Virus record (IMG/VR): IMGVR_UViG_3300024262_006558
Location: 124,001-188,000 of that record
Source of the DNA: a virus
Direction: 5' to 3' (one strand)
DNA length: 64,000 nt
The translations under genes and the position numbers were made by a program. Below, piece by piece: positions 4,697-50,132 of the stretch; within the stretch, counting starts at the first letter, position 1, and every line of letters begins with the position of its first letter. Below the pieces are notes generated by a model. That model was given only the letters and a program-made list of their open reading frames with translations, had not been told where the DNA came from and did not search any database.

Positions 4697-5974
4697 ATGG
4701 CGGAAGTTGTAGAAAAAACAGAAACCACACAAGAAGGTCAAAATACTGTTAAGACACCTGCTCAGGTGTTGGAAGCTTTGGAAGGGAACAAATTTAATAT
4801 ATATTTCTTCTCCCCAGGCATAGACGGACCTAGTGGTGGAATGGGCGTGTTATTTAAACAAGCTTTAATACTTAAAGAGGCTGGATATAATGTAACAATA
4901 TTATATCAACCAACAGTTGATAAAAGAGCTACAGCTCAATTTAGACAAGCTGCTGCTCAGCAAGGTAAGACGGATGATCAAACAATCATTTTCTTTAAAC
5001 ATAATCCAAGATGGATGGAGTTTAGTCTTTTTGAAACCGTAGAGAATGAAAAAGGAGTTAAAGAAGAAAGAAGTATTGTAGATTTCATCCCATTAGGTGA
5101 AGGGACTATGAGATTCAGCGATGGGACAGTTGAGGAAGCTCAAAACCTAAACCTTAACACTGAAGATTTCTTAATCATACCTGAGGGTTTCCCAAACATC
5201 ATGCAGGAAACAATGCATGCTCCTTGTAAAAGAATTGTACTGGCTCAAAGTTGGATTTATATCCTTAATGCTTTAGCTCCAGGGCAAAAATGGAATACGT
5301 TTGGTATCACTGATGCTATATCTGTTTCAGACGGAATTACAGAATATCTATCTTCAATAATGCCTCAAGTAAAAGTGAAGCAATACTCACAAAGCATTAA
5401 TAGAGAAATATTTAATGCACCAGATAATCTTAGTGATAAATTCCCTATGATAGCTTACTCAGCAGGTAGAGGGCAAGATTCTGAAATGAAGATTAACAAC
5501 GTCATTAGAAACTTTCAAGAGTGGTATCCACAATACAAATTTTTCAGATTCATGAAGTTGAATGATCTTTCTCGAAAAGAGTATGCTGAAAGACTTAAAA
5601 GCTGTTGTATTGCATTATACACAGATGATATTGCTGGATTTGGAACATTACCTTTAGAGGCGATGGCTAGCGGAACTCACGTAGTAGGATGGACTCCGTT
5701 TGGAGGAAAAGAATACATTAACAAAGCTGAAGGAGAAGAATTACACAACGGATTCTGGGCTAATAATGGGGATGTTTTCAACTTATCCGAAGTGTTAGGT
5801 GTCGCTGTTGACAAATGGGTTAACGGAGAGCTGGATGGAGAAGAGCTTCAGGAAGCATATGATAAAACTCTTAGTAGATATACTGATGAGAAAGAAAACT
5901 CAAGAATTTTAGATCTTTATAACGAATACAAAACTGAAAGAATAAATGAAATTAAAGGACTTCAAGCAAAGTAA
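4697..5974 (+). CDS. GT4-like (GT-B fold) glycosyltransferase
   Basis: 425 residues. After a ~30-residue polar lead, FNIYFFSPGIDGPSGGMGVLF is the glycine-rich N-terminal Rossmann start of GT-B enzymes, followed by LKEAGYNVTILYQP. The C-terminal half holds DDIAGFGTLPLEAMASG and VVGWTPFGG, the nucleotide-sugar binding signature of GT4 transferases; the final Glu is the usual ribose-binding residue. The acceptor is unknown. Its stop overlaps the next gene by 29 nt, so the two are translationally coupled. With the GMD gene at the window start, this suggests a phage glycosylation pathway, perhaps using a deoxysugar nucleotide. The start has no Shine-Dalgarno sequence, only an A-rich leader. Confidence 0.88.
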   Translation: MAEVVEKTETTQEGQNTVKTPAQVLEALEGNKFNIYFFSPGIDGPSGGMGVLFKQALILKEAGYNVTILYQPTVDKRATAQFRQAAAQQGKTDDQTIIFFKHNPRWMEFSLFETVENEKGVKEERSIVDFIPLGEGTMRFSDGTVEEAQNLNLNTEDFLIIPEGFPNIMQETMHAPCKRIVLAQSWIYILNALAPGQKWNTFGITDAISVSDGITEYLSSIMPQVKVKQYSQSINREIFNAPDNLSDKFPMIAYSAGRGQDSEMKINNVIRNFQEWYPQYKFFRFMKLNDLSRKEYAERLKSCCIALYTDDIAGFGTLPLEAMASGTHVVGWTPFGGKEYINKAEGEELHNGFWANNGDVFNLSEVLGVAVDKWVNGELDGEELQEAYDKTLSRYTDEKENSRILDLYNEYKTERINEIKGLQAK

Positions 5975-16045: not shown

Positions 16046-16318
16046 GTGAGAAAGAGGTTTTATATATCGCCAAAATCGCCAAGTGTTTACCAAGTTGAAT
16101 TAATAATACAAAAATGGCTTGAGAATCATAGGTATGAAATGTTAAATTTAACTATGCTTACTGAAGCTTTAAATATAGAGCTAAGTTCGGTTTTCATCTG
16201 GGGCAGGTTAGAGATAGATATGCAAATGATGGATGAAAACGGATTTGTAATAGAAGTTACCTTTTTGAATACTAGTACAAAAAAATACGAGAACGTTTTA
16301 ACTAAAATAGAATGGTAA
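16046..16318 (+). CDS. Small baseplate-module protein with MRKRFY start
   Basis: 90 residues from a GTG at 16046; an in-frame stop precedes it by one codon. Body: VYQVELIIQKWLENH and a beta-rich end (VIEVTFLNTSTKKYENVL). No family recognised. The first six residues, MRKRFY, are identical to the tag peptide of the gene at 46115, although the rest of the tag (HAY) is absent. It overlaps the KTSC gene by 7 nt and lies between gp6 and a very large baseplate protein, where T4-like phages carry small wedge proteins. Confidence 0.65.
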   Translation: MRKRFYISPKSPSVYQVELIIQKWLENHRYEMLNLTMLTEALNIELSSVFIWGRLEIDMQMMDENGFVIEVTFLNTSTKKYENVLTKIEW

Positions 16319-44540: not shown

Positions 44541-44993
44541 CTACTCAATAATACAACATGTAGGTTTAATAGTAAGAGTGATATAGCGCACGTCACTACT
44601 TGAATAATCTAATTCGCCAAAATTAACCTTAACACTCTCAACTACAATCACAAAGGTTTCAATAACTACCCCAGTCGGATCAAGGCTTGACATTCTAATA
44701 GTAAACATTTCTAACTCACCATTCAATTTCCTATCTTTACAGTAATCAATTAAATTAATCATAGATGAGCTTGTTGATATTCCATGCCCATATAAATCAA
44801 TAATATCTATGCTCATCTCTTCCCAAGACATATTTTGCAAATTGTAGTGAGGTAAATCAGCTCTCTGAACAGCAAACTCTGGAATATTAAAATGTTCATC
44901 AAATCTTAATGAGAATCTATTCCTTCTCATTGGCTCTTCTATAGGAGTAGCGATCAATTTTTTATTATATGCGTGATAAAACTTTTTCCTCAT
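44541..44993 (-). CDS. Tail tube-like protein with MRKKFYHAY tag
   Basis: 150 residues. Residues 1-9 are the tag peptide MRKKFYHAY (see also 45924, 46115, 46264). The remainder has the T4 gp19/tail-tube pattern: RNRFSLRFDEHFNIPEFAVQ, RADLPHYNLQ, WEEMSIDIIDLYGH, SSLDPTGVVIETF, VKVNFGELDYSSSDVRYITL. Every strand of the tube fold seems present, so unlike the neighbouring fragments this looks complete. It may be the functional tail tube, a baseplate-adjacent tube-like protein, or a paralogue. It is not next to a sheath gene, which is unusual for a main tail tube gene. Confidence 0.65.
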   Translation of the reverse strand: MRKKFYHAYNKKLIATPIEEPMRRNRFSLRFDEHFNIPEFAVQRADLPHYNLQNMSWEEMSIDIIDLYGHGISTSSSMINLIDYCKDRKLNGELEMFTIRMSSLDPTGVVIETFVIVVESVKVNFGELDYSSSDVRYITLTIKPTCCIIE

Positions 44994-45007
44994 AATTCAA
45001 ACTTTTA

Positions 45008-45868
45008 CTAAAACCAGCCCCATCTTCTTCTTGATCTATTCTTTGTGCGTCTCCATTGCTGAGTTTCTGCAACAGGCTCATCTTCGGGAACTTCTTCAGG
45101 TTCAGAAATCATCTCAGGCTCTTCTTGAACATCTGGCTGCACAGGCTCGACAGGCTCTACAGGCTCTGGATTAATCATATTGACAGGCTCTTGTGGAGTT
45201 GTTTTAGGCGCCTCTGGTGATACTTCTGGATTATCTGGAGTAACATTACTCGCTGGCTCTCCAGGGTTCTCATCTGTTACTGTAGGGGTTTTCTTAGGTA
45301 CTCTTGTAGGTTCTTGACTAAACTGATTCTGATCTTCTCTAGACTCTTCTTCATCTGGAGTAGGAATAGGTTTGTCAGTTAAGTTTGATTGGTAATTTTT
45401 AGCAATGTTTGGTTTGTATGTAGCTTCTACACTTTTGATATCTTTATCATTAGGGTTGTATCCCGTAATGTTATCGCTAAAGAATCTGTCAGTAAACCAC
45501 ATTCCTTTAATTCTATCTGCTCTAAACATTCTCCAGTCGTTTTCAGCTTCAGCGCTTCTAACTCCTGTTTTTTTGGCTGCTTTTTCAGATTGTCCAATAA
45601 CATGTAACCCTCTAACGACTTTATTACCTTTAGAGTTAGTTCCCATAACCACTGGCCTTACAACACGATACTTCTGTACGGGCATTTCTTCGCCTTTATA
45701 AAGAATTCCTATTTCCCTACCTTGCTCAATTGCCTGCTTCATCATATCAGCGCTAAAAGCCACTCTCTCACCACTCTTTGCAAGTAGCTTAGTTTTAGTG
45801 GCCATATCAGCTTCACTGATGATTCCAGCTAGTAATTGTGATCTTTTCTTAAAGGACTCTGATAGCAT
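45008..45868 (-). CDS. WYL-like domain protein with Pro/Glu-rich tail
   Basis: 286 residues. The N-terminus LSESFKKRSQLLAGI resembles short helical leaders of T4-like virion proteins. Residues ~38-145 look WYL-like: MKQAIEQGREIGILYKGEE, QKYRVVRPVVMG, KGNKVVRGLHVIGQS, then DWRMFRADRIKGMWFTDRFF. WYL domains bind nucleic acid or nucleotides and often regulate defence genes. Here there is no HTH; instead there is a ~100-residue Pro/Glu/Val-rich stretch and a basic C-terminus (RRTKNRSRRRWGWF). It lies directly upstream of the tube-like gene and is divergent from the tag-cassette genes. Confidence 0.6.
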   Translation of the reverse strand: MLSESFKKRSQLLAGIISEADMATKTKLLAKSGERVAFSADMMKQAIEQGREIGILYKGEEMPVQKYRVVRPVVMGTNSKGNKVVRGLHVIGQSEKAAKKTGVRSAEAENDWRMFRADRIKGMWFTDRFFSDNITGYNPNDKDIKSVEATYKPNIAKNYQSNLTDKPIPTPDEEESREDQNQFSQEPTRVPKKTPTVTDENPGEPASNVTPDNPEVSPEAPKTTPQEPVNMINPEPVEPVEPVQPDVQEEPEMISEPEEVPEDEPVAETQQWRRTKNRSRRRWGWF

Positions 45869-45923
45869 GTAAATAAATAGTGCGAAACTTTAATATGTCA
45901 AACTTTATCACTACATTTTATTT

Positions 45924-46118
45924 ATGAGAAAGAAGTTTTACCACGCATTTAAAAAACATAAAATAATATTTATGTCACCTGGAATATACACCAGGGAAAT
46001 AGATAGGTCTTTTGTGATGGTGTCAGGAGCAACTAATTCAAATTTTATAGCAGGTATTGATCCAGCCGTTAAGTCTCCAAGAATTGATATGCTAAAGGTT
46101 TTTGGATCAGCATCATGA
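45924..46118 (+). CDS. Tagged fragment: tail sheath N-terminus
   Basis: 64 residues. Tag MRKKFYHAF, then a short basic linker, then MSPGIYTREIDRSFVMVSG, which is the typical N-terminal start of a contractile tail sheath protein (SPGxYxxEIDxS). The frame then ends after about 45 sheath-like residues; a full sheath is several hundred. The linker DNA (A/T-only, with AATATTT before the internal ATG) looks like a former gene-upstream region read through in frame. Stop overlaps the next tag start by ATGA. Possibly a decaying copy, possibly a functional peptide. Confidence 0.55.
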   Translation: MRKKFYHAFKKHKIIFMSPGIYTREIDRSFVMVSGATNSNFIAGIDPAVKSPRIDMLKVFGSAS

Positions 46119-46267
46119 GAAAACGGTTCTATCACGCATATAAAAAGAAAAGTATGGCTCAAAAGTTTTTAGAGCTTAGTAATATTATTCATGAGAGAGC
46201 TGTGAGAGGTTCAGCGAACTTTATAATAACTAGCACGGCTATGGCAAATAAAATAAAAAAAATATGA
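46115..46267 (+). CDS. Tagged fragment: major capsid protein segment
   Basis: 50 residues. Tag MRKRFYHAY, basic linker, then FLELSNIIHERAVRGSANFI followed by ITSTAMANKI. This matches the internal T4 gp23-like capsid segment with pattern RGxGNFIIxSxxVxNxL, but nothing before or after it. The gene starts inside the previous stop (ATGA) and its own stop overlaps the next tag start in the same way. A real capsid protein would be about 400-500 residues and is not in this window. Confidence 0.5.
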   Translation: MRKRFYHAYKKKSMAQKFLELSNIIHERAVRGSANFIITSTAMANKIKKI

Positions 46268-46515
46268 GAAAAAACTTCTACCATTCTTATAACGAATTCA
46301 AATACCCTACTGTAGAATTAGGAGAAACTGTTTTTTCGATAATAGATAACTGCGATTATACCATGACCTACACCATGGATACATGGAGTGATTCATGCTC
46401 AGGTCTAGATAGTGACATATCCAGCATTGAGTACAGGCTTAAGACAGCTGAAGAAACTATCGATAGATTACTTGTCGAGATGAAAGAGATGAAAGATCAA
46501 ATGCAAAAACCATAA
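46264..46515 (+). CDS. Tagged coiled-coil protein
   Basis: 83 residues. Tag MRKNFYHSY, then YPTVELGETVFSIIDNCDYT, an acidic/aromatic middle, and a C-terminal coiled coil (SIEYRLKTAEETIDRLLVEM). I do not recognise the body; it may come from another virion protein. Third unit of the ATGA-linked series. Confidence 0.6.
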   Translation: MRKNFYHSYNEFKYPTVELGETVFSIIDNCDYTMTYTMDTWSDSCSGLDSDISSIEYRLKTAEETIDRLLVEMKEMKDQMQKP

Positions 46516-47174: not shown

Positions 47175-50132
47175 ATGGCTAAGAAAAACAAATATAAAGA
47201 TAGCGTAGTTCATATAAAGAAATTAAAGACAAATTATAGACTAACTTATGATTTTCTCAAATCTCTTACAGAATATATAAAATCATTTCCTAAAGAACAT
47301 TGGTCTATTCACAAAGAGCAGGTCATGGTGGGCGGGGAACTTAAACAGCAATGGTCCAGAGATATATCTGAATTCAAAATGGTTGATGTATTAGCGTTCC
47401 TAGTCGACAACTCAATCCCATTCAAATTTAGTAAATCCATAACAGAAAGAGAATTAAATGTTTTACGTAAAGAATATTTAGATCGACAGAATCGATTGAA
47501 AGATGCGCTTAGGGAGAAGTTAGATGGCATTGACATAAAAGGTATGGATTTCAGCTTTATGAAAATACAGCCTTATGAGTACCAACAACAAGCTGTTCGA
47601 TTCTTTGAGCTTAATGGAGGTATAGGGCTATTAGGGGATGCTCCAGGTGTAGGCAAGGAAATGCCTTTAGACACACCTATCCCCACTCCAGAAGGTTGGA
47701 AAACAATGGGGGATATGACGGTTGGTCAAAAGGTTTTTTCTAGAGATGGTGAAGTTTATAAAGTGAGAGGAGTGTATCCTCAAGGATCTAAAGATGTTTA
47801 TAAAATAACCTTCAATGATGGTAGCTCTACTAAATGTGGTTTAGATCACATTTGGACTGTTAGAGATAAAAATAGAAAGCGCAGAAATAAAGGGTGGACT
47901 ACAAAAACGATAGGTGATCTATTGGATAGCGGTTTAAAATATAACTTAGACGCCTCTAGAAAGTTATCTGGTAGAAAAGCTGCTCTCAAATGGGAGATAC
48001 CCACAACTAAACCAGTAAATTATAATAAGAAAAACTTATCAATAGACCCTTATATTTTAGGAGCTTTGATTGGAGATGGAAGTTTGACGGGATCATGTCC
48101 AGCTGTTTCCATACCAAATTTCCAAAAAGAAATCAAAGAAGAGATGGTTTCTAGATTAGATGAAGGGTATCATATGAGAAAGAATGATTATCCAAATTGC
48201 CCACAATATTACATCTCTCAAAAAGGATGGGGTGGACAAAGCAAAAAAAACAAATATCAACAAGAGGTTCTAAGTTTAAAATTAAACGTAAAATCTAGGG
48301 ATAAATTTATACCAAAAACCTATTTATTGGGATCTATAGATCAAAGAATTGATCTACTGAAAGGATTAATGGATAGTGATGGTAGTTGCGATAAAAATAG
48401 ATCAAATTATCACACTACATCTAAACGTTTGTCAATGGACGTTGTAGAATTAGTTCAGTCGCTAGGAGGCGTTGCAAAAGTTAACATCTATGATAGGTCT
48501 GCTGAAGGGAAGCCGACTGAATACAGAGTTAGGGTTAATGTTAATTTTTGCCCTTTTAATTTATCAGAAAAATCTAAACAGTGGAATCCAATAAAAACTG
48601 TTGAATCTAAATTAATAGAATCAATTGAAAAAGAGGCCTCTGAACAGCAGCAGTGTATTTCCGTAGATTCTCCAGACAACACTTACTTAACTGAAAGTTA
48701 TATTGTGACACACAATACCTGCTCGGCTTTTGCATATGCAGCTAAGCATCAGTATAAAACATTGATAATTTGTCCAGCCTCACTTGCTTTGAACTGGAAA
48801 AATGAAATAGTTAAGTTTACAAATGAAAAGGCTCACGTATACAAATACAAACCCACTAAAAAAAGCGGAAAGGTAAACTACGCAAAAGAAGACTCACTTT
48901 TCCATGTAATAAACTACGAATCACTTGATACCTATTTTAAATTTGAATACTCACATAAGTGTAGTAATTCAAATTGTAAATATGAAGAAGTATCTTTGGT
49001 TAAAAAATTTAAAGAGTGCCCTAGTTGCTTTAGTCCAAAAAGCGTTAAAAGCAGAAAAAAAGAACTTCTTGCTTTCGAAGCTAAAGATGGAAGCTTTATT
49101 AATATAGATGATTATGATTTAGTGGTTCTAGATGAGGCTCACTATATCAAGAACGATCAGGCTGAGAGAACTAAGTTATGCATTAAAGCATTAGGAGATA
49201 TCCCTAGAAAACTATTAGTTACTGGTACAGCAATAAAAAGTAAACCTATTGAGTTTTTCACTCTTGTTAACTTTCTATTCCCTGAGGAGTGGAAGAGTAG
49301 GCATCACTTTGGGGTAAGATATTGTGCTGGACATGAATCCAACTTTGGCTGGGATTATAATGGAGCCTCACATATACATGAGTTGTATGAGAGAATGTCA
49401 CCTTTTACTTTAAGAAGATTGAAGCAAGATGTATTAAGTCACTTGCCTCCAAAGACAAGATGGAATATACCAATTCAACTCACTCCAGCAGAAGCTAGAG
49501 AATACAAGAAAATAGAGCAGGAAACTATTACAATACTTTCCAATGGTGAAGCTATTGAAAAAAATCATCTTACGGTTCTTTTGGATTTAAAAAGCTTTAT
49601 TGCTGATATAAAATTAGATAGAGCCCTATCTCAAGTGCAAGACATTGTTGAAGGTGGTGAGAAAGTTGTTCTTATGTCTGAGTTTAGAAAATCAGCAGAG
49701 GGAGTTAAAGAGCATTTTGGAAAAAGCTGTGTAATGGTTCATGGTGGAGTTAGTAAAGAAGAACGAGATAATGCTGTTCACGCCTTCATGACGGACCCTA
49801 AGATAAAAGTGTTCAGCGGAACTATTATGGCTGCAGGAGTAGGGCTTACATTAACCTCATCTAGCACATTAGGATTTCTAGGATCAGCTTGGACTCCAGC
49901 AGATATGACTCAAGCGGAGGATCGTGTACACAGAGCGTCCACCACCTCAGATAAAGTTCATATTATAAAATGGATTTGTGAAGACACGATCGATGAAGAT
50001 ATTGAAGCCCTCTTAGAAGAGAAAGGGAAAATAGTAAACAAAGCCTTAGATAATACAAGTTCAATTGAAAGCGCTGAGGTTCTAAGTGGAAATATACAAA
50101 ATCAAATAATCGCTAGATTACTGAATGGATAG
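47175..50132 (+). CDS. SNF2-family helicase interrupted by a class 3 intein
   Basis: 985 residues, of which 353 are an intein. The spliced protein (632 residues) has YEYQQQAVRFFELNGGIGLL and Walker A GDAPGVGK, joined by splicing to TCSAFAYA; LIICPASLALNWKNEI (motif Ia), a Cys cluster (CSNSNCKYEE, then ECPSCFSPK) that could bind zinc, LDEAHYIKN (motif II), LVTGTAIKSK (III), LRRLKQDVLSHLPPKTRW, VMVHGGVSKEERDNA, and QAEDRVHRAS (VI). This is the SNF2/SMARCAL1-like layout, so an annealing helicase or fork-remodelling role is likely, as for T4 UvsW. It starts 67 nt from the opposite-strand 46770 gene. Confidence 0.9.
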   Translation: MAKKNKYKDSVVHIKKLKTNYRLTYDFLKSLTEYIKSFPKEHWSIHKEQVMVGGELKQQWSRDISEFKMVDVLAFLVDNSIPFKFSKSITERELNVLRKEYLDRQNRLKDALREKLDGIDIKGMDFSFMKIQPYEYQQQAVRFFELNGGIGLLGDAPGVGKEMPLDTPIPTPEGWKTMGDMTVGQKVFSRDGEVYKVRGVYPQGSKDVYKITFNDGSSTKCGLDHIWTVRDKNRKRRNKGWTTKTIGDLLDSGLKYNLDASRKLSGRKAALKWEIPTTKPVNYNKKNLSIDPYILGALIGDGSLTGSCPAVSIPNFQKEIKEEMVSRLDEGYHMRKNDYPNCPQYYISQKGWGGQSKKNKYQQEVLSLKLNVKSRDKFIPKTYLLGSIDQRIDLLKGLMDSDGSCDKNRSNYHTTSKRLSMDVVELVQSLGGVAKVNIYDRSAEGKPTEYRVRVNVNFCPFNLSEKSKQWNPIKTVESKLIESIEKEASEQQQCISVDSPDNTYLTESYIVTHNTCSAFAYAAKHQYKTLIICPASLALNWKNEIVKFTNEKAHVYKYKPTKKSGKVNYAKEDSLFHVINYESLDTYFKFEYSHKCSNSNCKYEEVSLVKKFKECPSCFSPKSVKSRKKELLAFEAKDGSFINIDDYDLVVLDEAHYIKNDQAERTKLCIKALGDIPRKLLVTGTAIKSKPIEFFTLVNFLFPEEWKSRHHFGVRYCAGHESNFGWDYNGASHIHELYERMSPFTLRRLKQDVLSHLPPKTRWNIPIQLTPAEAREYKKIEQETITILSNGEAIEKNHLTVLLDLKSFIADIKLDRALSQVQDIVEGGEKVVLMSEFRKSAEGVKEHFGKSCVMVHGGVSKEERDNAVHAFMTDPKIKVFSGTIMAAGVGLTLTSSSTLGFLGSAWTPADMTQAEDRVHRASTTSDKVHIIKWICEDTIDEDIEALLEEKGKIVNKALDNTSSIESAEVLSGNIQNQIIARLLNG
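47658..48716 (+). mobile_element. Class 3 intein with LAGLIDADG endonuclease in the helicase Walker A motif
   Basis: 353 residues between GVGK and TCSAF. It begins EMPLDTPIPTPEGW; residue 1 is Glu, not Cys or Ser. Block B GLDHIWTV has the Trp, block F QQCISVDSPDNTYLTE has the Cys, and the end IVTHN has Thr before His-Asn: the W-C-T triad of class 3 inteins. The endonuclease motifs are ILGALIGDGSL and, about 90 residues later, LLKGLMDSDGS. The first C-extein residue is Thr. The site in the catalytic P-loop is typical of inteins and makes excision essential for the helicase. Confidence 0.9.

Follow-up and report, generated by a model that had tools for sequence, protein, structure and literature searches.

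A short N-terminal peptide, RKxF[Y/W], lies at or near the start of 43 of the about 580 genes of the phage genome analyzed here (the record was read in stretches and gene starts were inferred with a simple gene caller, so the count of 43 may shift by a few). The peptide is appended, conserved as a peptide, nearly restricted to protein starts, and present on unrelated bodies, and it looks like an undescribed protein-sorting tag. We favor a reading, to which we assign a probability of roughly 0.4, in which RKxFY would act as an N-terminal recruitment signal on these ~43 small proteins and bring them to particles that the phage itself is assembling.

The stretch of DNA analyzed (the window; 64,000 nucleotides) corresponds to G000:C1:124001-188000 within a 388,594-bp virus record. 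With a gp23-like major capsid protein (MCP; C1:99639-101297, intact), the phage is a T4-like jumbo phage of 388.6 kb. The best MCP matches among annotated phages include Flavobacterium phage immuto and Microcystis phage Mel-JY01 (34-45% identity), while identity with IMG/VR relatives reaches 62-89%. We infer that the host is probably a member of the Bacteroidota. The genome also encodes a tail-tube paralogue without the tag (C1:84096-84584) and a longer TerL (C1:56134-57885), and the genes adjoining the MCP are likewise free of RKxFY.

The initial annotation had singled out four genes sharing one N-terminal peptide ahead of unrelated, virion-like bodies. All four open reading frames start as it claimed (MRKKFYHAYN, MRKKFYHAFK, MRKRFYHAYK, and MRKNFYHSYN) and their bodies are indeed unrelated, but the extent of the tag was understated, as the window holds one more tagged gene and the genome 43 in all. 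"Virion-like" fits two of the four, the tail-tube gene of 150 aa and the MCP piece of 50 aa, applies weakly to the 64-aa gene (sheath N-terminus), and is unproven for the 83-aa gene. The features in the window are as follows.

16046-16318, + strand (C1:140046-140318): fifth tagged gene, GTG start, 90 aa, MRKRFYISPK followed by an orphan body.
44541-44993, - strand: tagged tail-tube (gp19-like) paralogue, 150 aa, MRKKFYHAYN followed by a whole body (phrog_4542 tail tube, 5.3e-8; HMM E 7e-22).
44967-44993, - strand: tag codons, MRKKFYHAY.
45008-45868, - strand: untagged neighbor, 286 aa, starting MLSESFKKRSQLLAGIISEAD, with a prohead-core/CTS-like N-terminus and an [LI]xE site; contrast case.
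45924-46118, + strand: tagged gene, 64 aa, MRKKFYHAFK followed by a body weakly resembling a sheath N-terminus (MSPGIYTREID).
45924-45950, + strand: tag codons, MRKKFYHAF.
46115-46267, + strand: tagged gene, 50 aa, MRKRFYHAYK followed by an MCP segment (profile positions 401-433; MCP HMM E 4.5e-7 to 9e-7).
46115-46141, + strand: tag codons, MRKRFYHAY.
46264-46515, + strand: tagged gene, 83 aa, MRKNFYHSYN followed by an orphan body; ATGA overlap with the preceding gene.
46264-46290, + strand: tag codons, MRKNFYHSY.

In record coordinates, the tagged genes beyond the fifth gene of the window are located as follows.

C1:4791-5042, 5484-5669, 45418-45705, 94018-94494, 112607-113056, 116977-117348, and 119155-119382: tagged genes.
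C1:168541-170515 (window 44541-46515): the four first-noted tagged genes.
C1:222859-229682: array of 20 tagged genes.
C1:306037-306399, 337373-338092, and 341783-342064: tagged genes.
C1:371573-373615: array of 8 tagged genes.

The tag consensus reads R-K-x-F-Y-[I/H/F]-[A/S/G]-[P/Y]-[N/K] and comes in 2 flavors: HAYN/FAYN is frequent where the body is a virion fragment, and I-x-P is frequent in the 222-230 kb array. Seven members carry extra residues before the motif (e.g. MGRKLFY, MKTRKRFW, and one ~20 residues in), and 3 of these have ATT or ATC in place of the Met codon. When every triple of residues close to the protein start is scored, with the tag motif not supplied as input, R..FY at residues 2/5/6 ranks first (32 genes vs 0.36 expected); the same search returns nothing comparable in two relatives, G006 (372 kb) and G011 (222 kb). 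At the DNA level, the pattern DTGMGNAARNNNTTYTWY (start-R-K-x-F-[Y/F]) is found at 36 places in the record, compared with 1 for a reversed control pattern. Within the untagged proteome, [RK][KR]xFY[IVLHFY] has only 2 matches, both internal. One of these is ERRVFYIDVGN in a portal-like protein (C1:52456-56097, - strand), which could be coincidental or could point to mimicry. We also note a second, internal KKFYHVF stretch in a tagged capsid-segment protein (L058 6060-6509, - strand).

The initial annotation had proposed a search of this phage's other contigs and of related phages for further copies; the genome holds 43, and the relatives searched are without the tag. Across 35 relatives' records, the only matches are in the same strain or are isolated ones at the level of chance, and no diverged genome carrying the tag was recovered. 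The one other tagged contig belongs to the same strain (99.96-100% identical), and an assembly artefact is unlikely, as two of the tagged genes are also present on this second contig. Searches with exact DNA patterns, all of which would miss a diverged form of the tag, give a similar picture: the strict HAYN-type pattern recovers only the same strain among other viruses, the looser IxP pattern gives 13 chance-like matches in viruses (e.g. a lipoprotein and short ORFs), and bacterial genomes give 5 chance-like matches, among them TPR-like proteins. A rival motif in G006, MLYI, looks like misread upstream sequence.

Synonymous codons are mixed at the invariant residues of the tag (AAA 26/AAG 17; TTC 25/TTT 18; TAC 23/TAT 19), information falls at third positions, and the DNA flanking the tag, upstream included, has no conservation. 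The synonymous differences reported in the initial annotation are thus real, at R, K, F, and Y codons, and because the flanks are also unconserved the conserved entity is the peptide, as had been proposed, rather than a recent DNA copy. On the same grounds we reject both recent duplication of the DNA and a mobile DNA element sitting at the starts of genes. Relative to untagged tail-tube homologues, the tag adds ~8 N-terminal residues. In the AlphaFold model of the tagged tube protein, residues 1-23 are below pLDDT 50 (mean 27-35 over residues 1-20), and the body adopts a tube/Hcp-like fold with moderate confidence (pLDDT 71). The tag of the tube paralogue is an appended extension, modeled as disordered, in front of a folded body.

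Tag-stripped bodies were searched with profiles of the phage's untagged genes, drawn from this genome and its relatives, using reversed and shuffled bodies as decoys (best decoy 5e-6 across 1158 models). The tail-tube body (C1:168541-168993; E 7e-22) is matched over its entire length, relatives' homologues included, and with full-length homology and fold the 150-aa protein belongs to the gp19-like tail tubes. A terminase ATPase body (C1:337373-338092, 239 aa) has a profile E of 4e-13 and a Pfam Terminase_6N match above cut-off (4.9e-7); the matches of this TerL-like protein cover the ATPase part alone, not the ATPase plus nuclease of a terminase (PF03237).

Five tagged genes resemble the MCP, each as a single segment rather than a full-length, shell-forming gp23 protein (PF07068). 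Three are well above the best all-model decoy (C1:372059-372508, 4e-9; 371769-371987, 3e-7; and 170115-170267, the 50-aa gene, 9e-7 and, for Pfam Gp23, 0.055). The other 2 (372556-372777, 1.5e-5; 5484-5669, 1e-4 to 2e-4) are not distinct against all models, but they are when only the capsid profile is considered, as none of 172 decoys scores better than 0.058 on it. The five lie at separate profile positions (12-39, 76-118, 348-385, 401-433, and 493-539), with detection biased toward conserved segments, and the predicted MCP model (pLDDT 54) is too poor for placing them. A split MCP rebuilt from the tagged pieces is not favored, as the first two seem by eye to overlap and large parts are missing.

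The tagged gene at C1:119155-119382 carries a phrog_18929 domain (1.5e-14), and its Cellulophaga phage homologues align only from residue 21, past the tag. The 64-aa gene, which an ATGA overlap joins to the 50-aa gene behind it, matches the phage's own and relatives' sheath weakly (E 6e-4 to 1.4e-3, 17 residues). Independent support for the body assignments comes from PHROG matches and from Pfam, with Terminase_6N above its cut-off and Gp23 just below. At least 4 unrelated body types therefore carry the tag (tube, MCP segments, TerL ATPase, and the small phrog_18929 domain), and about 8 tagged bodies trace back by sequence similarity to proteins of the virion or of DNA packaging, though in the sheath case the evidence is weak. 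About 35 others, among them almost every body in the 222-230 kb array, are orphans with no relatives in the libraries searched; for example, no phage relatives were found for the 158-aa gene at C1:94018-94494, and no reliable family in PHROG or Pfam for the 83-aa gene. Two tagged bodies (C1:371573-371791 and C1:373264-373476, - strand) share a G...[FY][ND]......[IV]Y..G.W ending, which is absent from the other called proteins of this genome, G006, and G011.

Within the arrays, neighboring genes frequently overlap by ATGA. The 222-230 kb array ends where a 230-270 kb block begins that holds ~32 copies, nearly all in the genome, of a conserved promoter-like element, AGTACATA...CCCC...GTATATATTGGTGAATC, located upstream of small genes; these are probably early promoters, and the array carries none of them. 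Its TTC/TAC usage (0.49/0.44) is close to that of virion genes (0.44/0.47; n = 4), compared with 0.28/0.31 in small untagged genes, a bias that is not common to the other tagged genes. Together, the lack of promoter copies and the virion-like F/Y codon usage suggest that this array is not an early host-takeover set. A late-promoter test pattern, TATAAATA, was uninformative. A tRNA cluster ends with a tRNA-Leu gene immediately before the 371-374 kb array.

Several other features of this genome were observed alongside. The tRNA genes at L058 7618-10739 number 10 (Leu x3, Thr x2, Phe x2, His x2, and Cys x1), and the end of the first tRNA-Leu gene directly abuts a tagged gene. A phage-borne CRISPR array (L058 11044-13976; C1 about 377.0-380.0 kb) has a 66-bp period, ~14 repeats, and one spacer present twice; next to it are a Cas6b gene (1.4e-33) and a gene of 740 aa that reads as HD/Cas3-like, and the locus also takes in C1:380866-383088. 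Also by reading, a helicase-like 985-aa ORF (window 47175-50132, + strand) has an apparent intein inside its Walker A motif (GVGK...VTHNT).

Given that an added, disordered, and peptide-conserved signal on unrelated bodies behaves like recruitment tags, a targeting or packaging role is plausible. In the favored reading, one common partner would recognize the short linear signal on all ~43 small proteins, and the carriers would be recruited to the assembling particle (head core or tail) much as with the capsid-targeting sequence (CTS) of T4. The outcome would be a set of accessory proteins that stay with the virion or are co-ejected and whose bodies change fast, with the whole or partial tube, capsid, sheath, and terminase bodies serving as accessory parts or as decoys made from virion proteins. 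Recruitment to the particle is favored by the significance of the tag, its N-terminal confinement and conservation as a peptide, its form as an added, disordered extension on at least 4 unrelated body types, the virion-derived bodies, the virion-like codons of the 222-230 kb array and its position just outside the early-promoter block, and the T4 precedent. Counting against it, other CTS-like N-termini (LAGIxxE, IIKEE) already exist in the phage and its relatives, the genes next to the MCP are untagged, a TerL ATPase fragment and MCP pieces would be odd cargo, and the codon bias is confined to one array among the tagged genes. There is also no enriched prohead-protease site past the tag, i.e. 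[LI]xE within about 45 residues, a sequence test only, occurs in 10 of 43 tagged proteins and in 37 of 288 small untagged ones, so that the processing role raised in the initial annotation is not borne out.

If RKxFY is an address, its presence on ~7% of the phage's genes would make it unusually extensive for a virus. The tag turns otherwise undecipherable small orphan genes into one testable set, where an RKxFY binder would open the fate of ~43 proteins, and the tagged capsid-protein and terminase pieces would be a new use of virion genes.

A different function is conceivable for the same bodies, which might mimic virion parts and bait host immune sensors or a competitor's assembling particles, the tag being a handle that sequesters or inactivates the bound target. 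We regard this as possible, albeit unlikely. It would make sense of bodies that are truncated or diverged versions of tube, of five MCP segments, of the ATPase part of TerL and, on weak evidence, of sheath. Known defenses sense tube and capsid: DSR2 is triggered by tail tube, with a phage protein blocking it by competing for the tube site (PMC11087589), and Thoeris TIR systems sense capsid (PMC12578639). Tab is a precedent for a phage protein that blocks virion assembly (PMC10884400). Against the idea, most bodies are orphans, and matches to conserved MCP segments may be mere detection bias. A bolder form, which we hold to be rather improbable, is a library scattered over the genome, made up of tagged, shortened virion proteins (MCP segments, packaging ATPase, tube, and sheath N-terminus) plus ~35 tagged orphans, with one peptide and one receptor. 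In it, gaining RKxFY would activate any body, and the set would act against rival particles or against host sensors that detect virion proteins.

It is more doubtful that the tag is a putative degron or adaptor handle that delivers each protein and its bound partner to a host or phage protease or chaperone. A short, basic-aromatic, N-terminal, disordered, and portable peptide, compatible with any body, would suit such a role, but the motif tolerates extra N-terminal residues in the 7 members described above. We see little prospect for an expression leader, in which the opening codons would be conserved because of mRNA or the initiation of translation and the peptide has no function: ATGAGA does permit the ATGA stop-start overlaps common in the arrays, and AGAAAA is A-rich, but F and Y are (nearly) invariant while their codons vary, position 4 is unconstrained, the motif is missing from other small genes, and some members carry it a few residues in. 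Equally poor is the case for common descent only, from a single old gene family with bodies diverged past recognition. In its favor, the similar sizes of genes in the tandem arrays point to duplication, certainly no further than within the 222-230 kb array, but homology to at least 4 unrelated families implies repeated fusion and largely refutes it for the virion-derived members.

Among known systems, DSAD1 (a DSR2 inhibitor) and Tab (a tail assembly blocker) are phage proteins that act at tube or tail-protein interfaces (PMC11087589, PMC10884400); unlike the RKxFY carriers, they have no described shared tag and are not known as virion-protein fragments. The N-terminal domains of tail spikes (RaK2, viunalikeviruses) are also conserved on differing proteins and thought to dock to the virion (PMC3622015), but they span ~50 residues and occur on spike/fiber proteins in few copies. 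An N-terminal peptide of eCIS/PVC effectors loads varied cargo into a phage-tail-like tube (PMC11495950), although this is another type of particle. Closer at hand, LAGIxxE N-termini are common to several proteins of the same phage group, including the 286-aa neighbor at window 45008-45868 and G011, where R..xLAG[IL] starts similar to MLSESFKKRSQLLAGIISEAD occur on six proteins. This motif is longer than RKxFY, comes with an [LI]xE site, is found on about six genes, and is a candidate for the real CTS of the group.

The nearest comparison is with the CTS of T4, of which the first 10 residues of IPIII are enough for loading (PMC9026906), whose internal proteins have little in common beyond it (PMC3012670), and which is portable to foreign proteins (PMC9026906, PMC3012670). 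RKxFY is not filed as a CTS because its motif differs from the LAGIxxE and IIKEE N-termini, which we infer to have the CTS role in this group, and because no [LI]xE site is enriched just after the signal. It also has about 43 carriers rather than a handful, including capsid, tube, and terminase pieces. What it does share with the CTS of IPI, IPII, and IPIII is that a T4-like phage places a very short N-terminal peptide on small proteins whose bodies are unrelated and diverge fast.
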